Origin: a virus | IMG/VR virus record: IMGVR_UViG_3300043811_000231 | Span: 1-60,527 of that record | Strand: one strand, 5' to 3' | Length of the DNA: 60,527 nucleotides | Shown here: in pieces, positions 10,454 to 60,194 of the stretch | Numbering within the stretch: the first letter of the stretch is position 1 | Layout: the number at the start of each line of letters is the position of its first letter | Position numbers and translations under genes: made by a program | Notes under the pieces: generated by a model | Seen by the model: only the letters and a program-made list of their open reading frames with translations | What the model was told of the DNA's origin: nothing | Databases searched by the model: none

Positions 10454-11131
10454 CTACATTTTAATTTCCGTACACTTGAATTGCCGAAGGTACGCCGCCG
10501 CTTTTTCCAAAACCTCTGGATTATCTTCAAACGACCCGATAGCCGCATTGCATCCAAAACATAAAAGCCCTCGGACTTGTAACGTTTGATGCGAATGATC
10601 AACGCACAGTTTTTGGTACCGAGAATCTTTTTCTTTTCGACTGCAGATCGCACACGCTCCGTTTTGAAGTTTTAATTGAGCATCGTATTGTTCAGGAGTT
10701 ACACCGTACGTCCTTTTCAAATGCCGAGTCCTATAAACTACAGACCGTTTTTCGGGATTTGATTTGTTCCACCTGTCAACCCTGGCAGCATCACATTTTT
10801 TGCACACGTGCTTTCGAAGCCCTTTTGATTGATCGTTCCAATAAAACTCTTCCACCGGTAAATACGAATTACACTTCTTACACTGCCGCACAGTTTCAAC
10901 CGGTACTTTTTGAGAACGGAGAGCGTGTCCATCGCCTCCGTGCTCGGCAATAAAAGTCTCACGCTTTTTTCGACGCACTTCTCGTGCGTGGACGGCCGCT
11001 TTTTCAGCACACACCGCGCACGAATATTTTGTTGCCAACGCTGCTTTCCCACAAACCGCACAAAGCCCCGCCACAAGGCGCCGTTCCCGAAGTGCTTTGA
11101 CTCTATCGTTTATGACTGGTGTTTCGTTCAT
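10454..11131 (-). CDS. Endonuclease VII-type HNH nuclease (probable homing endonuclease)
   Basis: 225 residues. The C-terminal half is a recombination endonuclease VII (PF02945)-type module: YGVTPEQYDAQLKLQNGACA, then LCVDHSHQ, VRGLLCFGCNAAIGSF and a final helix. Two further zinc pairs lie in the N-terminal half (CAVC...CAVC and CKKC...CKKC). It sits alone between scaffold and major capsid genes, breaking an otherwise compact head cluster, as free-standing phage homing endonucleases do. It could instead be the phage's junction resolvase, but a RuvC-like gene is also present at 45110. Confidence 0.85.
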   Translation of the reverse strand: MNETPVINDRVKALRERRLVAGLCAVCGKAALATKYSCAVCAEKAAVHAREVRRKKRETFIAEHGGDGHALRSQKVPVETVRQCKKCNSYLPVEEFYWNDQSKGLRKHVCKKCDAARVDRWNKSNPEKRSVVYRTRHLKRTYGVTPEQYDAQLKLQNGACAICSRKEKDSRYQKLCVDHSHQTLQVRGLLCFGCNAAIGSFEDNPEVLEKAAAYLRQFKCTEIKM

Positions 11132-12337: not shown

Positions 12338-12598
12338 TTATCGTTTGGTTGAAATTGGATCTTTTCGTGCCAAGATACCAAGGGCTGTTGTAAAACCTTG
12401 AACAATACCTTGTTGCATGGAAATTTTTTCAGGCGGAATAATGTCGAGAGCTTCCCTTGCCCGGGCCTGGGCCACTTCAAATTCGTACTGAATCAACTTC
12501 CGAAACGGCGATTCAGGCATTTTTTCCCACAATTGGGCCGCTTCCTGCTCAGAAATTCCTGTCGCTTCGACGAGAGAGCGTTGGATTATCGATTTCAT
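12338..12598 (-). CDS. Small helical head-cluster protein
   Basis: 86 residues from the ATG at 12598, chosen because it overlaps the stop of the upstream HNH gene by 4 nt (ATGA). It is helical (TGISEQEAAQLWEKMPESPF) and ends 3 nt before the scaffold gene. Unknown function; position suggests a head assembly helper. Confidence 0.65.
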   Translation of the reverse strand: MKSIIQRSLVEATGISEQEAAQLWEKMPESPFRKLIQYEFEVAQARAREALDIIPPEKISMQQGIVQGFTTALGILARKDPISTKR

Positions 12599-12906
12599 GC
12601 TGCTTTGTGACACTGCCTTCCGTGCAGATTTAGGTGATGCTGCCGGCAGAGCCAACGCACATCAAAAGGCTTGGAATAATCATCGTGGTGCATCTGAGCT
12701 CTGGCGCCACACACTTCACATGGTTGTCGTCTTAACGCGCCTCTCCGCACTGCTCGGTTTGCCAAAGACCGCGCTTTTGTATGCGCGTCGTACGCATTTC
12801 CATTTTTAAGTCGGCTACTCTGTACACTTCGATTATGACACGCATAACAGGTCCGCTGCCCGGGCCTAGAAATGTCGCTTTTGCAGATCGAACAAACTGA
12901 AACCAT
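12595..12906 (-). CDS. Small HNH endonuclease-like protein
   Basis: 103 residues. An N-terminal zinc ribbon (CSICKSDI...CYACHNR) is followed by CEVCGARAQMHHDDYSKP and VRWLCRQHHLNLHG, the C-x2-C / HHDDY / LCxxHHxxxH arrangement of small phage HNH nucleases. It starts about 80 nt after the portal stop and overlaps the next gene by 4 nt. It is probably a selfish homing-type insertion in the portal-scaffold interval. The rest of the long open frame upstream of 12906 overlaps the portal gene and is not coding. Confidence 0.8.
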   Translation of the reverse strand: MVSVCSICKSDISRPGQRTCYACHNRSVQSSRLKNGNAYDAHTKARSLANRAVRRGALRRQPCEVCGARAQMHHDDYSKPFDVRWLCRQHHLNLHGRQCHKAA

Positions 12907-12985
12907 CCCGAATTGTTCTTTGTGGAACACGCCCACTTGCAACAAAAAACCTAATTTACGTGCACTAAAATACCTATTTTCGTGC

Positions 12986-15283
12986 TCAAGTATTGCCGGG
13001 ATGTACTTGCGGAGGGCCTGCACTCGGCATTGTTGGACCGCGAAGGGCTTGCATGGCAGATGCCATTCCTGGGCGCGGACCTGGCCGTGGGCCGCGCGGA
13101 GCGTGGCGTGGGTTCGGCGCTCCGGAAATAGGCAGGTGTGATGGACGGTGCCCCATCGGAGGCGGCGGAAGCCCGGCAGTCGTCGGAGGACCGCCCGGGT
13201 GGGGAATGATTCCCGGCGGCGTTGGACCCCCAGTGCCCGATTCGTTGATACCGATGTCAGCCATGATCTGAAACCGTTCGGCCGGAGTAAGTTCTCCGAT
13301 TTTTGCCGCCACCGCCAAACTGGGTTTGACCGGCGGGATCGGCTTCGGTTGCGCTGCCGCGGCCTGCTGCGCCTGTTGCAATAGCGCGAGTGCCTTTTGG
13401 ATTGCGGCCGGGCGCCAACGATATTTTTCCGGATCCTCGCCGGACGCACGAATGAGCGTGAGGAAAAGCTCCCGTGGATCGAGATTGCCATCTGCGGGTT
13501 TGAACATGTCCGGAAATTGCTGCATGCCTTCCAAAGCTCGGGTGATTGCCGCCACCTTTTTTGCGTCGGGACCCGGCAGCGCGCCGTCGTGCGCGCGATA
13601 TGTAAACGTGCCTTGGATAACATCGTTGGTAATGATGAATGGTCCATTCGAAAATTCCTCCGCAGTCTGGGGATCAACTCCGCTAATTTTTCGATACAAC
13701 GTGTCGTCAAAAAACTGCTGAAAATTTGCCACGAACCTCTTGGTTTGGGGAACGATCGCGCTGACGGAAAGAAGCCGGGCGATCGCCGACAGACGCCCCG
13801 CCGCCATTTGCTGCGTTCCAGAAAACTCCGTAGCCGTCACTCCGCCACCCGCGGACTGCCCCTGAAGGTTCTGATTGGCGCCGGACGTGGCCTCGGCAAA
13901 TGAAATAAAGCCTTTCATCTCACCCAAGAAATTCGCCGTCATGTCCACCATCGGCACTTGGCGAACTATCTGGCCTATGTCCATGTTCTGACCCTCGGGA
14001 AGAATCGATATAAACTTTCCCTCCTTCTCTGGATCCTCAAAGTCCGCAATGTCTATAAGATTGGACTTTGCTATAAACACATTGCCTATCGTTCGGGTCA
14101 CGGCCTCTTGGTGACGATTCTTCAGGTAGTCCACGTAGTCCTGAATGTTTTTCAAAATCATCACCCACGACGGAGAGAATTGATAAAATGGCGATGGTCG
14201 CGCTTCGCCCACCGAATATGGGAATTGGCTGTGTTCATAAGTGGACTCGTTGCAGGCCAACGGCTCTTTCTCGTTGCCGAGGATGATTTGAAAAACCTCC
14301 GGGTCCGTACGGTCGTCAATGTCGTAGTCTTTTGGGATAATTTTCACCCAAAGTTCAACGAAATCGATCACGCCTGGATCCTTAGCATCAGCCCTGGAAT
14401 CAACCGGTGTCGCCACCTTCCCGCGCTCGTACGCCGTGCGCGAAATCAAATCCTGCCCGGTCGGTCCCGTCGCCGTGCTGGACGTGGGGTAAGCAATGCT
14501 CTTGGTGGGTTTTTTCTTGAGCTCATTCACCCCGCGCGCCGATAGGTACATAGGGTCGTCCGGCTCTAACTCACTACGGTTTTTTATTTCATCCCACGTC
14601 TTGTTAATCCGGTGACCGGCAAACCGTCCTTCCTGCATCCGATAAATCGGCATCAACGGGTCCATGTAGAAATCGTATGGCGAAACCAACTCGACACGGT
14701 TGAAACCGCCTGTGCGCGTTTTTATTTTTTGAACGGAAGTGATCGGCTGCCCGGTGTCAGGATCGGCAGTGGGTTGTCCTTCTTCATCGAGCACCGGCGC
14801 CTCCTGCCACATCGACTTGTTGATTGGAGCAAAACAGTCGTAAAAAATTCCCCGGTTGTACGTCAGGGCGTTCTCGATCCACATGAACCCAATTTGATAC
14901 ATACCAGCTGGCTGCTGCTCGGCATTCCACTTCAATAGTTCATTCATATACCTAGCGGCGCCATCGTCGTCAGGACCGCCGGCATCAACCTTGTGCGGAG
15001 TATCGTCGCCAAACAACGTCTGCGCCAAAAACGTCGTCATGGTGTGAACGTGCGTGGCAGTAATTGGAAGAATATAACGACGGGGGGTTCCCTTGGCCAG
15101 CTTCACATAGTCCTGTTTGGTCAATGTAGCATAGCACATGAGTATATCATGCGCCGCATCAAAGTCGGCCGTATAGTAATCCAATGTGGCGCGCGCATGC
15201 GTCACATAGTCCTGACCGAGTTTCAAAATTCTTTTTCGAAACTCTTCGTCAGTGTCGAGCCGGCCTGTAAGTGACTGGGGCAT
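12986..15283 (-). CDS. Portal protein
   Basis: 765 residues, in the range of podoviral portals. The wing/stem part (residues ~1-560) has portal hallmarks: a helical start, FMWIENALTYNRGIFYDCF, VSPYDFYMDPLM, ILKNIQDYVDYLKNRHQEAV and a late NFQQFFDDTLYR helix. The last ~90 residues are Pro/Gly/His-rich and probably disordered. It forms the dodecameric DNA channel at one capsid vertex and docks the terminase. It is encoded 12 nt downstream of an acidic protein and upstream of the scaffold, the usual head-gene order. Confidence 0.9.
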   Translation of the reverse strand: MPQSLTGRLDTDEEFRKRILKLGQDYVTHARATLDYYTADFDAAHDILMCYATLTKQDYVKLAKGTPRRYILPITATHVHTMTTFLAQTLFGDDTPHKVDAGGPDDDGAARYMNELLKWNAEQQPAGMYQIGFMWIENALTYNRGIFYDCFAPINKSMWQEAPVLDEEGQPTADPDTGQPITSVQKIKTRTGGFNRVELVSPYDFYMDPLMPIYRMQEGRFAGHRINKTWDEIKNRSELEPDDPMYLSARGVNELKKKPTKSIAYPTSSTATGPTGQDLISRTAYERGKVATPVDSRADAKDPGVIDFVELWVKIIPKDYDIDDRTDPEVFQIILGNEKEPLACNESTYEHSQFPYSVGEARPSPFYQFSPSWVMILKNIQDYVDYLKNRHQEAVTRTIGNVFIAKSNLIDIADFEDPEKEGKFISILPEGQNMDIGQIVRQVPMVDMTANFLGEMKGFISFAEATSGANQNLQGQSAGGGVTATEFSGTQQMAAGRLSAIARLLSVSAIVPQTKRFVANFQQFFDDTLYRKISGVDPQTAEEFSNGPFIITNDVIQGTFTYRAHDGALPGPDAKKVAAITRALEGMQQFPDMFKPADGNLDPRELFLTLIRASGEDPEKYRWRPAAIQKALALLQQAQQAAAAQPKPIPPVKPSLAVAAKIGELTPAERFQIMADIGINESGTGGPTPPGIIPHPGGPPTTAGLPPPPMGHRPSHLPISGAPNPRHAPRGPRPGPRPGMASAMQALRGPTMPSAGPPQVHPGNT

Positions 15284-42770: not shown

Positions 42771-43214
42771 ATGCAAAATTTCGAACAACGGTTTTGGGTG
42801 AAAGTTAAAAAGATTCCTGGTGGATGCTGGAACTGGTTGGCGTTTAAGTACCAGGGATACGGCCGATTTGGAATGGACACAGCTGCTGGCTATCGAATGC
42901 GCGGCGCGCACGTTGTGGCATACGAGCTTTTGATTGGTCCAGTTCCTAAAGGAAAAGTGCTGGATCACACTTGTCGCAATCGGGGTTGTGTAAATCCAGA
43001 GCACCTTGAGCCCAAAACCAACGTAGAAAACGTAATGATCGGGAAAGGAGCGTGTGCGGTGCACGCTCGCGCAACGCACTGCATCCACGGCCATCCACTA
43101 TCAGGGTCTAATTTAATGATTCGAAAGCAGGGAGGGCGGTGGTGCCGACTCTGCGGAAATCGACGCATGCGCGAATACCGCGTTCGGTTGAAGTGTGTAA
43201 AAATTTCCAACTAA
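42771..43214 (+). CDS. HNH endonuclease (HNH_3-like)
   Basis: 147 residues. GGCWNWLAFKYQGYGRFG, then VLDHTCRNRGCVNPEHLEPK with the H-N-H core and zinc Cys, followed by HCIHGHPLSG and a CRLCGNRRMREYR tail. This is the standard layout of a phage free-standing HNH_3 endonuclease. It starts 3 nt after the DNA polymerase gene, a favoured site for homing endonucleases. Confidence 0.9.
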   Translation: MQNFEQRFWVKVKKIPGGCWNWLAFKYQGYGRFGMDTAAGYRMRGAHVVAYELLIGPVPKGKVLDHTCRNRGCVNPEHLEPKTNVENVMIGKGACAVHARATHCIHGHPLSGSNLMIRKQGGRWCRLCGNRRMREYRVRLKCVKISN

Positions 43215-43813: not shown

Positions 43814-44130
43814 TGAACAGCGAACTGATGGTTTACTGGCTTCGCGCCATGGTCCAAGCAATGCCGCCGGGTGGAAAAAAACGAGCGGCCGTCATGCTCG
43901 GGCTCTCGCCTTCCGGCTTTTCCAAGCTGCTCAACAACGCCGAGCGCGGCTTTGATGAGAAAACGCTCAAAGCCGTGGCATGGGTCGAGAACTCCAAAGC
44001 CCACAAATATCCCGAGGCGCAATTCCCCATTACCAACCGCATGACGATTGGCCCCATCATCGTCGAAATGCGCAAAGGCGCAGGCGGAGAAGAATTTCCC
44101 GTATGGCGGCTTGCCCCAAAACAGCAGTGA
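43810..44130 (+). CDS. Helix-turn-helix regulator-like protein
   Basis: 106 residues. KKRAAVMLGLSPSGFSKLLN is an XRE-like helix-turn-helix; the C-terminus (RMTIGPIIVEMRKG) is a short strand set. Possibly a regulator of the methyltransferase gene that overlaps its end by 28 nt. Confidence 0.7.
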   Translation: MMNSELMVYWLRAMVQAMPPGGKKRAAVMLGLSPSGFSKLLNNAERGFDEKTLKAVAWVENSKAHKYPEAQFPITNRMTIGPIIVEMRKGAGGEEFPVWRLAPKQQ

Positions 44131-45113
44131 TTTACTACAACGAAAACGATCCCAAAGCAGCAGCATGGCTCCAAGCTCTTATAGACGCTAGGGAGATTGG
44201 TTTTGGCGTTGTGGACAAACGCAGTATTTGTGACGTTCAACCCAATGAGCTTTCCGGATTCGATCAACACCACTTCTTCGCCGGAATCGGCGGCTGGCCT
44301 CTCGCCCTTCGAATTGCGGGTTGGCCTGACGATAAACCGGTTGCCACTGGGAGCTGCCCATGCCAGCCGTTTTCTACTGCCGGAAAACGAAAAGGCGTTG
44401 CTGATTCGCGCCATCTTTGGCCGCAGTTTTTCCGACTCATTCAAGAGCGAAAATTTCCAGTTGTCTTTGGAGAACAGGTTGCGAGCAAGGATGGCCGCAT
44501 TTGGCTCGCCGGAGTACGAGCTGACCTGGAAAACGTGGGATATGCCGTCGGGGCCGCCGATCTGTGCGCTGCGGGCGTCGGCGCGCCGAACATCAGGCAG
44601 CGGCTTTATTGGGTGGCCGACTCCAACGTGTCCAGTGATAACCAACGGCCACCAAGCGGGAAACAACCGATATGTGACCGGGTGCGTCAAAGCGTTGATA
44701 GGCTGGAGCACACCAAAAGCGAGCGACTGCCAAGGAGGCCGGACAACAGAGACCGAGGGCGGAGGGAATGCGCATCTGGACCGGCAGGCGAGGATGCAAC
44801 TGCTCGGCTGGGCCACTCCACGGGCCAGGGACTACAAGAACAACGGAGTGAGTATCGCCCGGGCGGCGAAGGGTGTGGCGGATTCGTTGGATTTGCAGTG
44901 CAAGTTGGTGTGCCGGAATGGAACGGAAGGACCGTCGCCCTTGAGTGCCAGGATGGATACCGGCGCGCCTCCGCTCAATCCGGCGCATTCCCGGTGGCTT
45001 ATGGGCTACCCAAGCGCATGGGACGACTGCGGGGTTACGGCAATGCAATCAATCCGTACCTCGCGGCGCAGTTCATCCAAGCCTCTGAAGAAGCAAGACT
45101 CTGTATAGAATGA
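44103..45113 (+). CDS. DNA cytosine-5 methyltransferase
   Basis: 336 residues in one uninterrupted frame. Motif I HHFFAGIGGW (56-65), motif IV GSCPCQPFSTAGKRKG (83-98, catalytic Cys87), motif VI VFGEQV, motif VIII NIRQRLYWVA, and motifs IX-X near the end (MGRLRGYGNAINPYLAAQFI). The variable target-recognition part between VIII and IX is short. It would protect phage DNA from restriction or mark it. Its 28-nt overlap with the previous gene and GTG-rich interior are normal; a second long frame is nested inside it. Confidence 0.9.
   Translation: MAACPKTAVIYYNENDPKAAAWLQALIDAREIGFGVVDKRSICDVQPNELSGFDQHHFFAGIGGWPLALRIAGWPDDKPVATGSCPCQPFSTAGKRKGVADSRHLWPQFFRLIQERKFPVVFGEQVASKDGRIWLAGVRADLENVGYAVGAADLCAAGVGAPNIRQRLYWVADSNVSSDNQRPPSGKQPICDRVRQSVDRLEHTKSERLPRRPDNRDRGRRECASGPAGEDATARLGHSTGQGLQEQRSEYRPGGEGCGGFVGFAVQVGVPEWNGRTVALECQDGYRRASAQSGAFPVAYGLPKRMGRLRGYGNAINPYLAAQFIQASEEARLCIE
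44245..45108 (+). CDS. Candidate overlapping gene inside the methyltransferase (TWK...WPTPT family)
   Basis: 287 residues from the ATG at 44245 (the frame extends to a TTG at 44197). It lies wholly inside the methyltransferase gene in another frame, with no stop for ~900 nt. The translation has a recognisable pattern: ENEKALLIRAIFGRSF, EYELTWKTWDMPSGPPICAL, repeated GWPTPT/GWSTPK/GWATPR and the end NPAHSRWLMGYPSAWDDC. I recall phage proteins with this TWK...GPPICALRAS...WPTPT...WLMGYPxxWD plan in databases. Some database entries may themselves be misread frames. Function is unknown. Confidence 0.5.
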   Translation: MSFPDSINTTSSPESAAGLSPFELRVGLTINRLPLGAAHASRFLLPENEKALLIRAIFGRSFSDSFKSENFQLSLENRLRARMAAFGSPEYELTWKTWDMPSGPPICALRASARRTSGSGFIGWPTPTCPVITNGHQAGNNRYVTGCVKALIGWSTPKASDCQGGRTTETEGGGNAHLDRQARMQLLGWATPRARDYKNNGVSIARAAKGVADSLDLQCKLVCRNGTEGPSPLSARMDTGAPPLNPAHSRWLMGYPSAWDDCGVTAMQSIRTSRRSSSKPLKKQDSV

Positions 45114-45673
45114 AAATCCTTGCTATAGATCCCGGGCTCTCAGGAGCGGTGGTTTTGCTTGGTCCCGGCGAGCTACAGGTTCGCACAGACTTCAAGCACA
45201 TTGAAGACCTGACACGCGCTATCGATGAATTTGCACCAAGCGCGAGCCACGCGGTGGTCGAGCTTGTAGCCGCGCGTCCTGGGCAGGGTGTGAGCTCCAT
45301 GTTTACCTTCGGAATGTCGGCCGGCGTGGCGCTCGGATCGCTCCACTCGAACGGATTCTCCGCCTACGACAAACGGAAGAAAAAACTGGTCGAGGTGGCG
45401 CCACAGAAATGGCAGCGCTACTTCCGAGAGCTTGAAACTGAACTCGATAAAAGTTTTGGGGATGCTCGACTGCCCTTCGATAGTAAAGCCGTGGCTCGTA
45501 GGTTGCTCAGCCACTCTGCCGAGTTTCTCGAACGCGCCAAAGACCACAACACCGCTGACGCTCTGCTCATGGCTCTCTGGTACGTGTGTACCGCGCCCGA
45601 ACTGGGCAGCTTACGGGAACGGGATAAAATGCGGATGCCGTGGCTGCAAAAACGCTTCAATCAGCCGATTTGA
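45110..45673 (+). CDS. RuvC-like Holliday junction resolvase
   Basis: 187 residues. KILAIDPGLSGAVVLL gives Asp7; AVVELVAARPGQGVSSMFTF gives the second acidic residue; DHNTADALLMALW gives the last two. This is the RNase H-like fold of RuvC, and the PGQGVSSMFxFG segment is typical of phage-type RuvC. It probably resolves branched replication intermediates before packaging. ATGA overlap with the methyltransferase gene. Confidence 0.9.
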   Translation: MKILAIDPGLSGAVVLLGPGELQVRTDFKHIEDLTRAIDEFAPSASHAVVELVAARPGQGVSSMFTFGMSAGVALGSLHSNGFSAYDKRKKKLVEVAPQKWQRYFRELETELDKSFGDARLPFDSKAVARRLLSHSAEFLERAKDHNTADALLMALWYVCTAPELGSLRERDKMRMPWLQKRFNQPI

Positions 45674-45726: not shown

Positions 45727-46434
45727 ATGAAACAACTGCCTTTTGGTATTATCTTCGGCGGCACGCTTCCGGCAGTCGCCGTCTTATCCTCCACCAAGAC
45801 CACGATTTCCGGCACCGTTACCCAATTCAATGCGTGGATCGCGGAGATCAACACGAACTTCGCCAATTACGGTTACGCTTCGACGCCTAACCTTCCTCTC
45901 CTTCCGACCATCCCCACTCCCGGTTCCACGGCTCCCAACGGCATTGCCTATTTCCAATCGACGCCGCCCGGCGGCACGAGCCTCGGAAGTGGGCCGGCAT
46001 CAAGCTTCCTCCTCATCGACGCCTTCACGAGCAATGGGTACAGCGATCCAAGCGGTGCGCTCGACACGCTGACGGCCGATGCCACGCTGCTCAGTCTGGC
46101 CATAGCCAGGGCCTCCCTGTCCACCGCCGCACCCGTCGCCATCACGGTCCAGCCGACCAACCAGTCGATCGCCCACAATGCCGCCGGCGCAATCGCGCTC
46201 ACGGCCACAGGAACCGGTGCTCTTTTCACGTGGCTTGTGAATCTGCCCAACACGACTGGCTTCCAGCTCTGCACCACGGCAGACGGCGTGCTCTCGACCA
46301 TCAACACGGCCTCCCTCACTATCACCAATCCGCCTCTGGCTAAATACAACGGTGCCAAGTTCGCCTGTATCGTTGATTCGGCTGCCGGCGGTCAGCGCCT
46401 CTGGTCCACGGTTGTCACCCTCACGGTCACTTGA
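45727..46434 (+). CDS. Ig-like domain surface protein
   Basis: 235 residues. Residues ~135-235 (PVAITVQPTNQSIAHNAAGA ... AKFACIVDSAAGG ... VVTLTVT) read as an immunoglobulin-like beta sandwich with the usual C-terminal TVxLxV strand. The N-terminal part has a short helix pair. Such domains decorate phage virions and help binding to host or surface glycans. It has its own promoter motif and a terminator (46461-46495), so it is a separate unit in the early-strand arm. Confidence 0.75.
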   Translation: MKQLPFGIIFGGTLPAVAVLSSTKTTISGTVTQFNAWIAEINTNFANYGYASTPNLPLLPTIPTPGSTAPNGIAYFQSTPPGGTSLGSGPASSFLLIDAFTSNGYSDPSGALDTLTADATLLSLAIARASLSTAAPVAITVQPTNQSIAHNAAGAIALTATGTGALFTWLVNLPNTTGFQLCTTADGVLSTINTASLTITNPPLAKYNGAKFACIVDSAAGGQRLWSTVVTLTVT

Positions 46435-46460
46435 CCGGCCGACTGGCCTTTGTTTCAAGG

Positions 46461-46495
46461 AAAACCCCGGAGCTCTGTGCTTCGGGGTTTTTATT
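46461..46495 (+). terminator. Rho-independent terminator after the Ig-like gene
   Basis: AAAACCCCGGAGC pairs with GCTTCGGGGTTTT (one wobble) around TCTGT, followed by TTTATTT. Strong classical terminator. Confidence 0.85.
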
Positions 46496-46537
46496 TGCAA
46501 AACCAACCCAACTCTGAAAATAGTCTCTTACATACCG

Positions 46538-47608
46538 ATGAAAACCAAACTCTTCAGCTTCCTCAGTCTCTTCGTGGCCCTCACTTTTGGCCTCTTTTCT
46601 CCCACTTATGCTGCCGTCACAACCGGCATCACCCAGCCGATTTCGGTGCCGTACAACAACCCCACGCTTACCACGTTCACCATCCCGGCTGTCAATCCGA
46701 ACAACTACCTACTCCGCGGAGACGGCTCTCTGGTATCCGGTTCGGATCTTGCCGCCGTAATTTCCGGCGGTGGGAGTGGCGTTACCGGCTCCGGGTTGGC
46801 AGTTTTTCAAACGGCCCCCACGATCATCACACCTGTAATTTCCACAGGTTTGACGGCATCCGGTTCAGCTGCGAATGATTTTTCGGCTTCCACCGGTGCC
46901 TTTAAAGCATCGTCTGGAGCAACTACGTTGCCCAATCTCACGAGCAACGGCCTTGTTACCACCAGCGGAGGCACCGGTCTATTGTCTGTGACGGCCACGA
47001 CGGGCTCAGGAAGCGCCGTTTTGGCCACAAGCCCTACGTTGGTAACTCCGACCCTCGGAGCCGCATCGGCCACCAGCATCGCCGTCAACGGCGGCATTGC
47101 ACAGCATCTCGTGATCAACACGTCCACGTCGGGCCAGACGCCCGCAGCCACCACCAGGACGTACATTACAGGCTCGGCAATCGCCATCCCGGCGACCGGT
47201 CTTCAAGTCGGCACCGTGCTCCATTGGCATTTCGACATGACGAAAACTGCTGCCGGGTCTGCTTCCAGTACGATCGACATCGCCTTTGGAACCGCCGGCA
47301 CCACGGCTGACACGGCGCAAGTTTCCTTCACCAAACCCGCCGGCACGGCCGCATCCGACGAAGCGTTTTGCGAAGTCGAGTGTGTCATCAAGACCATCAA
47401 TGCTTCGACCGGCGTGGCCATTGGTGAATTCACCATGGGCCATAATTTATCAGCCACCGGTCACGCCACTATTCCTTTCGTGGCGGTGAACACCACTTCA
47501 GGCTCGTTCAACACGGTTTCGCCAACCTTTGTTGGCCTGTGTATCACGACCGGCGCCTCCGACGCCATCACGATCAACCAGGTCAGTTCGTACGCGCTGA
47601 ATATGTAA
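46538..47608 (+). CDS. Exported fibre-like protein with a signal peptide
   Basis: 356 residues from the ATG at 46538, chosen because it gives a clear Sec signal peptide (MKTKLFSFLSLFVAL...TYA, cleavage after residue ~25) and lies after the terminator; the open frame upstream is not coding. The mature N-terminus (ITQPISVPYNNPTLTTFTIP) and the repeat-like GLTASGSAANDFSASTGAF, also found in the 766-residue fibre, are tail-fibre-type. The C-terminal ~150 residues form a beta domain. It probably binds a surface or acts as a secreted decoy. Confidence 0.8.
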   Translation: MKTKLFSFLSLFVALTFGLFSPTYAAVTTGITQPISVPYNNPTLTTFTIPAVNPNNYLLRGDGSLVSGSDLAAVISGGGSGVTGSGLAVFQTAPTIITPVISTGLTASGSAANDFSASTGAFKASSGATTLPNLTSNGLVTTSGGTGLLSVTATTGSGSAVLATSPTLVTPTLGAASATSIAVNGGIAQHLVINTSTSGQTPAATTRTYITGSAIAIPATGLQVGTVLHWHFDMTKTAAGSASSTIDIAFGTAGTTADTAQVSFTKPAGTAASDEAFCEVECVIKTINASTGVAIGEFTMGHNLSATGHATIPFVAVNTTSGSFNTVSPTFVGLCITTGASDAITINQVSSYALNM

Positions 47609-57893: not shown

Positions 57894-60194
57894 TTAGTTA
57901 ATCTGTTGAATGATACCTTCGGCATTATAAGTTACGCTGGTAAAAGTACCGACCGTGGCAAAAGTAATCGCCGTGGACGCCTTGGCCCGGATGTGGAGGG
58001 GCACGCCCTCGTAAGCCCCGACGCCGAGTGCGTTGGTAATCGTGGTCAGGAAGGTACCAGTCACGCTGGAGAAGTTCATGGTCAGCGTGCGGGAGGTATT
58101 GGTTTCATCCGTGTAGGTGCAGGTGCAGGTGAAGGAGTTCGTGGTCGAAGCGGTGACGTTGATGTTGGCCGACACGATGAAGCTCCCGTCCGCCGCGCCG
58201 ACCGTGTAAGTGGAAAATGCGGCGGCGGCACCTGTCTGCCCGGTGACACGCCCGGAGGCATAGATGGCGGGGTGACCCCAGCCAGCCGTATTTACGTTAT
58301 TATAGACCGACTCCTTCCCTTGGTTAGAGAGAGTCGTGCAGGTAATCTGCCCACTGGCATTGACCCTTCCACCACCGATTCCAACTGAAGTCGTGGCATT
58401 ACCTATCGTATTTGTCACCACCAAAGCTCCTTGGTTGCTCGATCCTGAATTGGTACCGGTCGTCGTGCTGTCCACGATGACAAGTGAATGCGCTCGTGAG
58501 GTAGTCAGGCTGCCCGCCACTGCCGCTGGGCCAACCATCAGAACGTTCTGAATATCTGTCGCGGCGCCGGCAGACGAGTCGGTAAAAGTCGGCGCCCCCA
58601 TGTAAATGCCCTGCAGACTTGTAGCCGTATTAGTACCGGTAACCGTAGTAGTGTAAGCGGGAAGCGTTAGCGTCGTGCCAAAGGTGGTCGCGCCAGATGG
58701 ATTGGCTCCGTAGGTGTAGGCACCTCCTAGGATCGACTGGCCAGAAGCCACATCGAGTGCGTAATCATTGGTAATGGCCAGCGTGGAGGCCGTCGGCTGC
58801 CCAGCGATGTAATTCGTAGCTGCAGTCGTAATCGTTCCGGAGGCGGCGGAGTAGGTGGGGATGCCTTGGTAAAGCGCCGCCACTGTCGCCGGCTCTGAGG
58901 TCTGGAAGGTCGTCGTTGCGGAGGGAATGTTTACCCCGGTCGCAACCGGGGTCGTTGGATTAGTCGAAAAGGTATAAGCCGTGCCTCCAAAGTTGGAAGG
59001 TCCGGCTTCCACGTCGAGCGCCCAAGGTTGGGATAGAATGGCGTTGGTGCCCTGGATCGGCGGCGCACTGATGTCGAGGGTTGAAGCCACGGTGAAGGTC
59101 TGCGAGGCAGATGCGCTGGCAAGAGTGTCCGCCACAAAGTGATATTCGTACTGATCCGCCACGGTGCCGGTCGTCGCCCAGGTGCGCGTAGCGCCTGTCG
59201 TCTGCAACACGGGTACCGTCGTTGCGGCAGTTAAACCTGTATCCGCAGCTGCCGTGATCTGCACGTCAGGTAGCACGCCGGAAGTCTTGGCGGTTGAAGT
59301 AACGGTGAGCGGCGCTGTCGTTGCCGTACCATTAAATACCGCAGGCCCGGTGAATGTCGCAGTGCCCGTTCCAATGGTTACGGATCCAGTAGATGTCTTG
59401 AATGTGCCTGTGCTTGCAGAAAAGTCATTCGCACCCGAACCTGAGGCCGTCAGTCCGCCTGCAATCACAGGCGTCGTCATAGACCACGAGGTGGTCGAGC
59501 TGGCACCAGTGAATGTGTTAGCTGCGTCGGTTCTTGCCACGGTGGCCGATGTTGCCGGGAACGTCATTGTCGTCCCATCAGTTCCGGCCAAGGTCAGGCT
59601 GTTGTTGAAGGTGAGCGTTTTTGCTGCGCCGCCCGTCAACGTGTAGCTGCCAGTCGTGAACGTATCTCCATTGATCGTCGAAGAAAATGTCGCGGCGTTC
59701 GCAACAGTGAGAAGCCCCGCGCTACTTATGCTCATCGCATCTGCCGCAGTCGGGCTTCCTACGATGAAGTGGATGGCATTACTGGTCGTAGTTCCGATGG
59801 CAAGATCTCCGCTATTAGAGTAGAGATAGGTCGCACTCGGCGCATTGAAATTACCACTACCGGTGAACGCCGAGCTGTTAATTCCGAAATCGCCATAGTA
59901 CGTCGTCGCCGTACCGAGGTTATTATTGACGATATAGTCGGCCGAAGCGCCGGTTCCCGCATTCGTATTTTGAAGAATAGATTGAAAATATCCCGTTTGA
60001 CTCCCCGTGATCTGAAGACCTACACCAGTGTCAGTAATCACAGGAATTCCGATATTGACGGGAGCTGTCAATGTGGGGTTGACGGTTAAACCGGCGACTG
60101 AGCTAATGCTGGGACTTCCGCCCAAAGACGCAGATTGAGCACCGAGCCCCAACGCCGTACTCAAAGCAAGTACGAGAAAAATGAATTTTTTCAT
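57894..60194 (-). CDS. Exported tail-fibre-like protein with a signal peptide
   Basis: 766 residues. A Sec signal peptide (MKKFIFLVLALSTALGLGA, cleavage ~19) precedes repeats typical of long fibres: NIGIPVITDTGVGLQITGSQ, GGLTASGSGANDFSASTGTF, and multiple TxTGT strands. The C-terminal ~100 residues (TVGAADGSFIVSANINVTAS, TSRTLTMNFSSVTGTF) are a common fibre-tip domain. It shares the GLTASG block with the 356-residue protein at 46538. ATGA overlap with the 140-residue gene. Secretion of a fibre is unexpected. Confidence 0.85.
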   Translation of the reverse strand: MKKFIFLVLALSTALGLGAQSASLGGSPSISSVAGLTVNPTLTAPVNIGIPVITDTGVGLQITGSQTGYFQSILQNTNAGTGASADYIVNNNLGTATTYYGDFGINSSAFTGSGNFNAPSATYLYSNSGDLAIGTTTSNAIHFIVGSPTAADAMSISSAGLLTVANAATFSSTINGDTFTTGSYTLTGGAAKTLTFNNSLTLAGTDGTTMTFPATSATVARTDAANTFTGASSTTSWSMTTPVIAGGLTASGSGANDFSASTGTFKTSTGSVTIGTGTATFTGPAVFNGTATTAPLTVTSTAKTSGVLPDVQITAAADTGLTAATTVPVLQTTGATRTWATTGTVADQYEYHFVADTLASASASQTFTVASTLDISAPPIQGTNAILSQPWALDVEAGPSNFGGTAYTFSTNPTTPVATGVNIPSATTTFQTSEPATVAALYQGIPTYSAASGTITTAATNYIAGQPTASTLAITNDYALDVASGQSILGGAYTYGANPSGATTFGTTLTLPAYTTTVTGTNTATSLQGIYMGAPTFTDSSAGAATDIQNVLMVGPAAVAGSLTTSRAHSLVIVDSTTTGTNSGSSNQGALVVTNTIGNATTSVGIGGGRVNASGQITCTTLSNQGKESVYNNVNTAGWGHPAIYASGRVTGQTGAAAAFSTYTVGAADGSFIVSANINVTASTTNSFTCTCTYTDETNTSRTLTMNFSSVTGTFLTTITNALGVGAYEGVPLHIRAKASTAITFATVGTFTSVTYNAEGIIQQIN

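Follow-up and report, generated by a model that had tools for sequence, protein, structure and literature searches.

The C5-cytosine methyltransferase (MTase) gene analyzed here forms, almost certainly, a dual-coding pair with F2, an evolutionarily maintained ORF nested within it in the +1 frame, as judged from sequence comparisons of both frames. The locus probably encodes a nested two-subunit C5-cytosine MTase, in which F2 would provide target recognition in trans. The window, i.e., the whole stretch of DNA analyzed, comprises the 60,527 bases of a virus record, and its genes include those for a terminase large subunit, an SU10-type portal and a family A DNA polymerase.

The MTase (336 aa) is encoded in frame 0 at positions 44103-45113 (+) and matched PF00145 (E 5.7e-14) and phrog_363 (E 5e-68). 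The +1 ORF runs on the same strand from TTG 44197 or ATG 44245 to the stop codon at 45106-45108, with 303 codons when counted from TTG 44197. Both frames were found where the original prediction had placed them, and the strings that it quoted (GWPTPT, GWSTPK, GWATPR and NPAHSRWLMGYPSAWDDC) were all present in the translation of the +1 ORF. F2 was assigned to 44203-45108 (+), on the basis of its match to phrog_1008 (E 1.7e-30) and the selection tests, with TTG 44203 as the probable start and ATG 44245, the first ATG, as the alternative. Among the F2 starts of the window, TTG 44203 is preceded by the strongest candidate ribosome-binding site, AGGGAG at 44190-44195 (+), located 7 nt upstream (duplex energy -8.8 kcal/mol). 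Across 117 loci, ATG codons recurred at MTase residues 38, 44 and 48, and the SD energies of the 5' starts of F2 were better than those of +2-frame controls, but hardly better than those of internal +1 codons. Translation of F2 would begin at an internal start of its own.

The occurrence of the pair was analyzed in 246 type-A loci, comprising 80 loci retrieved from viral contigs by MTase sequence, 80 retrieved by F2 sequence, 80 retrieved from bacterial genomes by F2 sequence, five phage records and the window. Both frames, in the same +1 register, occurred in every one of the 246, including the 80 retrieved by MTase sequence alone, and F2 was also detected in nearly all of the 92 loci from two further groups. 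Among the unique loci (n = 205), the longest +1 stretch without a stop had a mean of 308 codons, compared with 161 in synonymous shuffles, and the share of the MTase ORF that was open reached 91% for the +1 frame and 20% for the +2 frame. In the second MTase group, the open fraction of the +1 frame was 0.88 vs. 0.38 in the shuffles. The contrast loci picked by MTase similarity (Klebsiella S9a and RAH2, YX3973, HC6, SalP219, Krischvirus LF73P4, RcMrWorf and Cr-LKS3) likewise had a long +1 frame carrying the same motifs; in Krischvirus LF73P4, the frames were displaced in the last part of the stretch by an apparent frameshift. The nested pair occurs in phages of no fewer than four bacterial phyla, namely Pseudomonadota, Actinomycetota, Bacillota and Cyanobacteriota.

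Relatives with an intact MTase and stops in the second frame, which would speak against dual coding, were not found within the group. In this respect, variation was limited to the N-terminus of F2, and in the decayed prophage L218 both frames were damaged. Free-standing copies of F2 were sought by means of PHROG 1008 and PHROG 27243 in 299 genomes of one phylum, and none was detected; likewise, every copy examined in the scans with the F2 sequence overlapped an MTase gene. Loci L332, L335, L350 and L393 were considered as exceptions for F2 and rejected, as they corresponded to frameshifts or to misses of the motif pattern. Three other loci (L126, L207 and L243) contained an in-frame stop in the MTase frame with F2 still open. 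These loci, which may have lost the MTase naturally while retaining F2, or may reflect pseudogenes or sequencing errors, were left out as evidence together with L218.

Purifying selection was observed in both frames, as dual coding requires. In a codon alignment of 117 sequences, the entropy of the +1 frame was set against a synonymous-shuffle null. The variability of the +1 frame was near this null at MTase codons 25-48 and beyond the end of F2; inside F2, stops were virtually absent and the entropy was far under the null. Values of 1.24 vs. 2.28 bits were obtained for codons 133-144, 2.02 vs. 3.03 bits for the start of the second module, and 0.42 vs. 2.09 bits for the motif-IX-like block LNPAHSRWLM. 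Additionally, 50 independent pairs with a nucleotide identity of 70-93% yielded a dNN/dNS of 0.14 for the +1 frame (95% CI 0.11-0.16) and a dSN/dSS of 0.45 (0.36-0.58). The value of 5.2 given by the +2-frame dNN/dNS control reflects the geometry of codon positions and cannot serve as a calibrated null; a cleaner control is provided by MTase codons 1-36.

The substitution rates at MTase codon positions 1, 2 and 3 were 0.087, 0.069 and 0.369 at codons 1-36, changed to 0.156, 0.079 and 0.170 at codons 109-170, and reached 0.380, 0.263 and 0.293 in the variable region, where position 1 was the fastest. Since MTase position 1 is the wobble position of F2, it is F2 that leads in this region. Rates of 0.363, 0.221 and 0.264 were obtained for the second MTase group after motif VIII. 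Moreover, the identity of the window F2 to 200 relatives was higher than in all of the 200 shuffles (z 10.5), with codons 109-316 accounting for the excess. These comparisons are limited by the relatedness of the loci and by a shuffle that takes no account of codon context; the 5' end of the MTase gene serves as internal control.

These data were weighed against the reading that F2 is not a gene, its openness and similarity arising as a by-product of how the MTase uses codons, of repeats and of GC content, and being spread by mis-annotation. In the window alone, the shuffle test for a +1 frame open that long gave only p = 0.015, and the constraint on +1 amino acids did not go beyond the null at MTase codons 37-108, as such a by-product would predict. 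Across the family, by contrast, synonymous shuffles reproduced neither the openness nor the conservation, and the codon-position rates flipped to F2. A marine phage with a GC content of 34% likewise had an open F2 frame, while E. coli dcm, from outside the group, has 14 stops in the corresponding frame. The by-product reading is contradicted by these data, barring an unmodelled nucleotide-level constraint that mimics +1 coding, and was considered highly improbable. The nested dual coding put forward by the original prediction is strongly supported by stop avoidance, amino-acid constraint, codon-position rates and the constant +1 register across phyla.

Frame 0 contains, in order and on the + strand, the C5-MTase motifs I (44274-44321), IV with its PCQ (44346-44375), VI (44460-44486), VIII (44580-44621) and X (45030-45077), in addition to the PF00145 match. 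The TRD and motif IX, expected between motifs VIII and X, were not found in this frame. The AlphaFold model of the MTase showed a confident core and the motif X helix, with most of residues 197-311 predicted as disordered, and its best structural matches were M.HhaI entries. Because of this predicted disorder at 197-311 and the presence of a motif-IX-like block in the +1 frame, frame 0 was interpreted as the catalytic part and not as a complete single-chain enzyme. In two relatives, just 60-65 residues separate motifs VIII and X, too few for a TRD when judged against M.HhaI.

F2 contains a helix and a beta-hairpin (SENFQLSLENRL...LTWK...ALRASARRTS) at 44446-44595 (+), predicted with a pLDDT of 83-89 over most of its length and coinciding with the constraint at MTase codons 109-170. 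No counterpart of this segment was found in known MTases. Three PTP modules, defined by sequence and module analysis, follow on the same strand: module 1 (GWPTPT...) at 44611-44700, module 2 (GWSTPK...) at 44701-44805, and module 3 (GWATPR...) with a linker at 44806-44973. The motif-IX-like block LNPAHSRWLMGYPSAWDDC lies at 44974-45030 (+) and was recognized by its low entropy and by alignment to single-chain actinophage MTases; the hhalign comparison of the F2 C-terminus with motif IX of these enzymes gave an E of 3.3e-5 and a probability of 72% over only 19 columns. In the AlphaFold model of F2, the helix and the hairpin were confident, and the helices around the motif-IX-like block less so. 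The modules had low confidence (mean pLDDT 59.7), as did the model overall, so a folded TRD is not established by it.

The modules begin with (G)WPTP, have a median length of 36 aa and number from one to five per F2 protein. Related modules recurred across loci, and their ordinal position differed in 67% of the related pairs. Paired modules had 65% identity in the F2 frame vs. 40% in the MTase frame, a comparison that favors F2, as the pairs were picked on F2 identity. No Pfam or NCBIfam model matched F2, and a profile search of the PDB gave nothing credible. Foldseek with the F2 model produced four significant matches, all of them phage proteins, one annotated as a methyltransferase, which are probably F2 homologues. 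A weak PADLOC match, obtained for 1 of 113 sequences, was treated as chance.

The position of these modules in other MTases bears on their function. The mycobacteriophages ShiLan, Phasih and Moonbeam encode intact single-chain MTases in which motifs VIII and IX are separated by two or three in-frame PTP modules, which suggests that the F2 modules are probably TRDs supplied in trans. Residues 215-328 of the Moonbeam MTase matched residues 157-260 of the window F2, covering modules and motif IX (F2 profile, i-E 0.0043, Z 1e5). A different arrangement was observed in Gordonia phage Gmala1, where frame 0 goes no further than motif VIII, and a module and motifs IX and X are found in the +1 frame.

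Frame 0 followed by the +1 frame is colinear with a full single-chain MTase, and the Gmala1 arrangement also fits a programmed ribosomal frameshift from the MTase frame to +1 after motif VIII, which would give one chain with motifs I-VIII, the modules and motif IX. Such a mechanism was considered very unlikely, since constraint on the +1 frame is already seen far ahead of motif VIII (MTase codons 109-160), in a part that this fusion would leave unused, and motif X of the window group lies in frame 0, so that a second shift would be needed. Two side observations were made on other MTase loci. In Mycobacterium phage Jarcob (L404, 1321-2491), a frameshifted ShiLan-type MTase is annotated as MTase genes 69 and 70. 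In the uncultured phage GF2-KM23-C739 (L403, 1328-2164), the N-terminus of the MTase and the remainder are in different frames, as two CDSs, which may be due to a sequencing error or to a real frameshift.

In the two-subunit enzyme proposed here, frame 0 would encode a catalytic subunit in which motifs I-VIII and motif X flank a flexible segment that lacks a folded TRD. F2, encoded by the +1 frame, would be composed of an N-terminal tail, the helix/beta-hairpin, one to five exchangeable PTP modules and the motif-IX-like C-terminus. F2 would dock on the catalytic subunit, rebuilding the missing small domain, and would set which DNA sequences are methylated, its PTP modules acting as TRDs; the phage could then use the methylation against host restriction. 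The sequences show that F2 is maintained by evolution, that it has a motif-IX-like block and that modules of its kind fill the TRD slot in intact single-chain relatives; its translation, the association of the chains, the role of the modules as TRDs and the anti-restriction use are inferred. In a wider reading, to which we give an even chance, a very large class of phage C5-MTases from Pseudomonadota, Actinomycetota, Bacillota and Cyanobacteriota would be dual-coding, with a nested modular specificity subunit and a TRD-less catalytic chain, and indels would have moved modules between frames.

The helix/hairpin of F2, having no MTase counterpart, counts against the two-subunit reading. It would be better accommodated if F2 were a real conserved protein with another methylation-linked role, such as an MTase regulator or inhibitor, an antirestriction protein or a DNA-binding partner without target recognition. 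The occurrence of F2 only alongside the MTase is also as expected of a partner. Furthermore, motif IX is in the MTase frame in actinophages, and F2 is kept in ShiLan and Moonbeam although modules and motif IX are already in cis; therefore, F2 may have a further role. On the other hand, a motif-IX-like block and PTP modules that occupy the TRD slot of single-chain enzymes are unexpected for an unrelated regulator, and the MTase frame appears, in its predicted structure, to lack a TRD. For these reasons this alternative was given about one chance in four in our judgement, and the regulator or inhibitor suggested by the original prediction seems less likely than a subunit of the enzyme carrying target recognition and motif IX.

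C5-MTases active as two polypeptides have been described, namely M.AquI and M.EcoHK31I (PMC3404938). The large chain of M.EcoHK31I contains motifs I-VIII, motif X and a predicted TRD, and the small chain contains motif IX (PMC3404938). Compared by motif distribution alone, the window resembles M.EcoHK31I (YGGCCR), its large chain having I-VIII and X and its small chain a motif-IX-like block; it differs in that the PTP modules are on F2 and the large chain is predicted to be disordered where M.EcoHK31I has its predicted TRD. Moreover, M.EcoHK31I belongs to a restriction-modification system, whereas no restriction gene was recognized beside the MTase of the window. The small ORF of M.EcoHK31I reportedly lies inside the large ORF, in another frame. 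If so, the phage family would belong to this kind of enzyme, which it would enlarge by specificity subunits that bear modules and by its occurrence in phages of at least four phyla.

Short tandem recognition units, exchangeable between phages, are known from the multispecific C5-MTases of Bacillus phages (SPR, phi3T and rho11 type). There, the units are within the MTase chain, unlike the separate nested frame found here, and the likeness is one of description only. In M.AquI (CYCGRG), an active enzyme, the division into two chains falls within the variable region (PMC3404938). Its motif distribution is shared by Gmala1, with I-VIII on one ORF and module, IX and X on the other. The window differs in having motif X on the large chain, instead of IX and X on the small one, and in that its ORFs are fully nested.

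Most of the records inspected had only one frame annotated. F2 was usually unannotated, or else called methyltransferase, Mte8-like or hypothetical. In GenBank, K1ind2 has ORF28 ("Mte8-like") nested inside ORF29 ("C-specific methylase"), and in Paenibacillus phage Bloom a second "DNA cytosine methyltransferase" CDS lies inside the first. All of the 113 F2 sequences searched (113/113) matched both PHROG 1008 and PHROG 31772, and the entries under these families and under "Mte8-like" are the F2 ORF or its homologues. The association with independent phage proteins made in the original prediction is accounted for by database entries for this same nested ORF, all copies examined overlapping an MTase. 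No proposed function for the nested frame was found with the PHROG 1008, PHROG 31772 or "Mte8-like" annotations, and no description of this nested pair in phages was found in a literature search that had subscription papers mostly outside its reach.

Few long gene pairs are both fully nested and conserved across phyla, and such cases are disputed. As annotation often keeps one frame, a widespread phage protein has been missed or mislabelled. If F2 is a specificity subunit, many "complete" MTases would lack activity or specificity once cloned by themselves or codon-optimized, because recoding destroys the second gene, and the nested modules might allow methylation specificity to be predicted. 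In addition, the nested, split and single-chain forms of the family make up a natural series in which domains can be watched moving between reading frames.

Several other ORFs were observed in the window. An antisense ORF of 327 codons extends across the start of the MTase gene (43833-44816, -). Just upstream of the MTase region, an HNH endonuclease (PF13392) is encoded at 42771-43214 (+), and further ORFs judged HNH-like by eye are located at 10454-11131 (-) and 12595-13710 (-). Directly 3' of the MTase, overlapping its stop codon, an ORF at 45110-45673 (+) was judged RuvC-like by eye (MKILAIDPGLSGAVV) and had no match in a Pfam search. Finally, two structural-looking ORFs at 46352-47608 (+) and 57894-60194 (-) have near-identical repeats in common (GLTASGSxANDFSASTGxFKxS), which suggests a duplicated module in putative fibre-like proteins.
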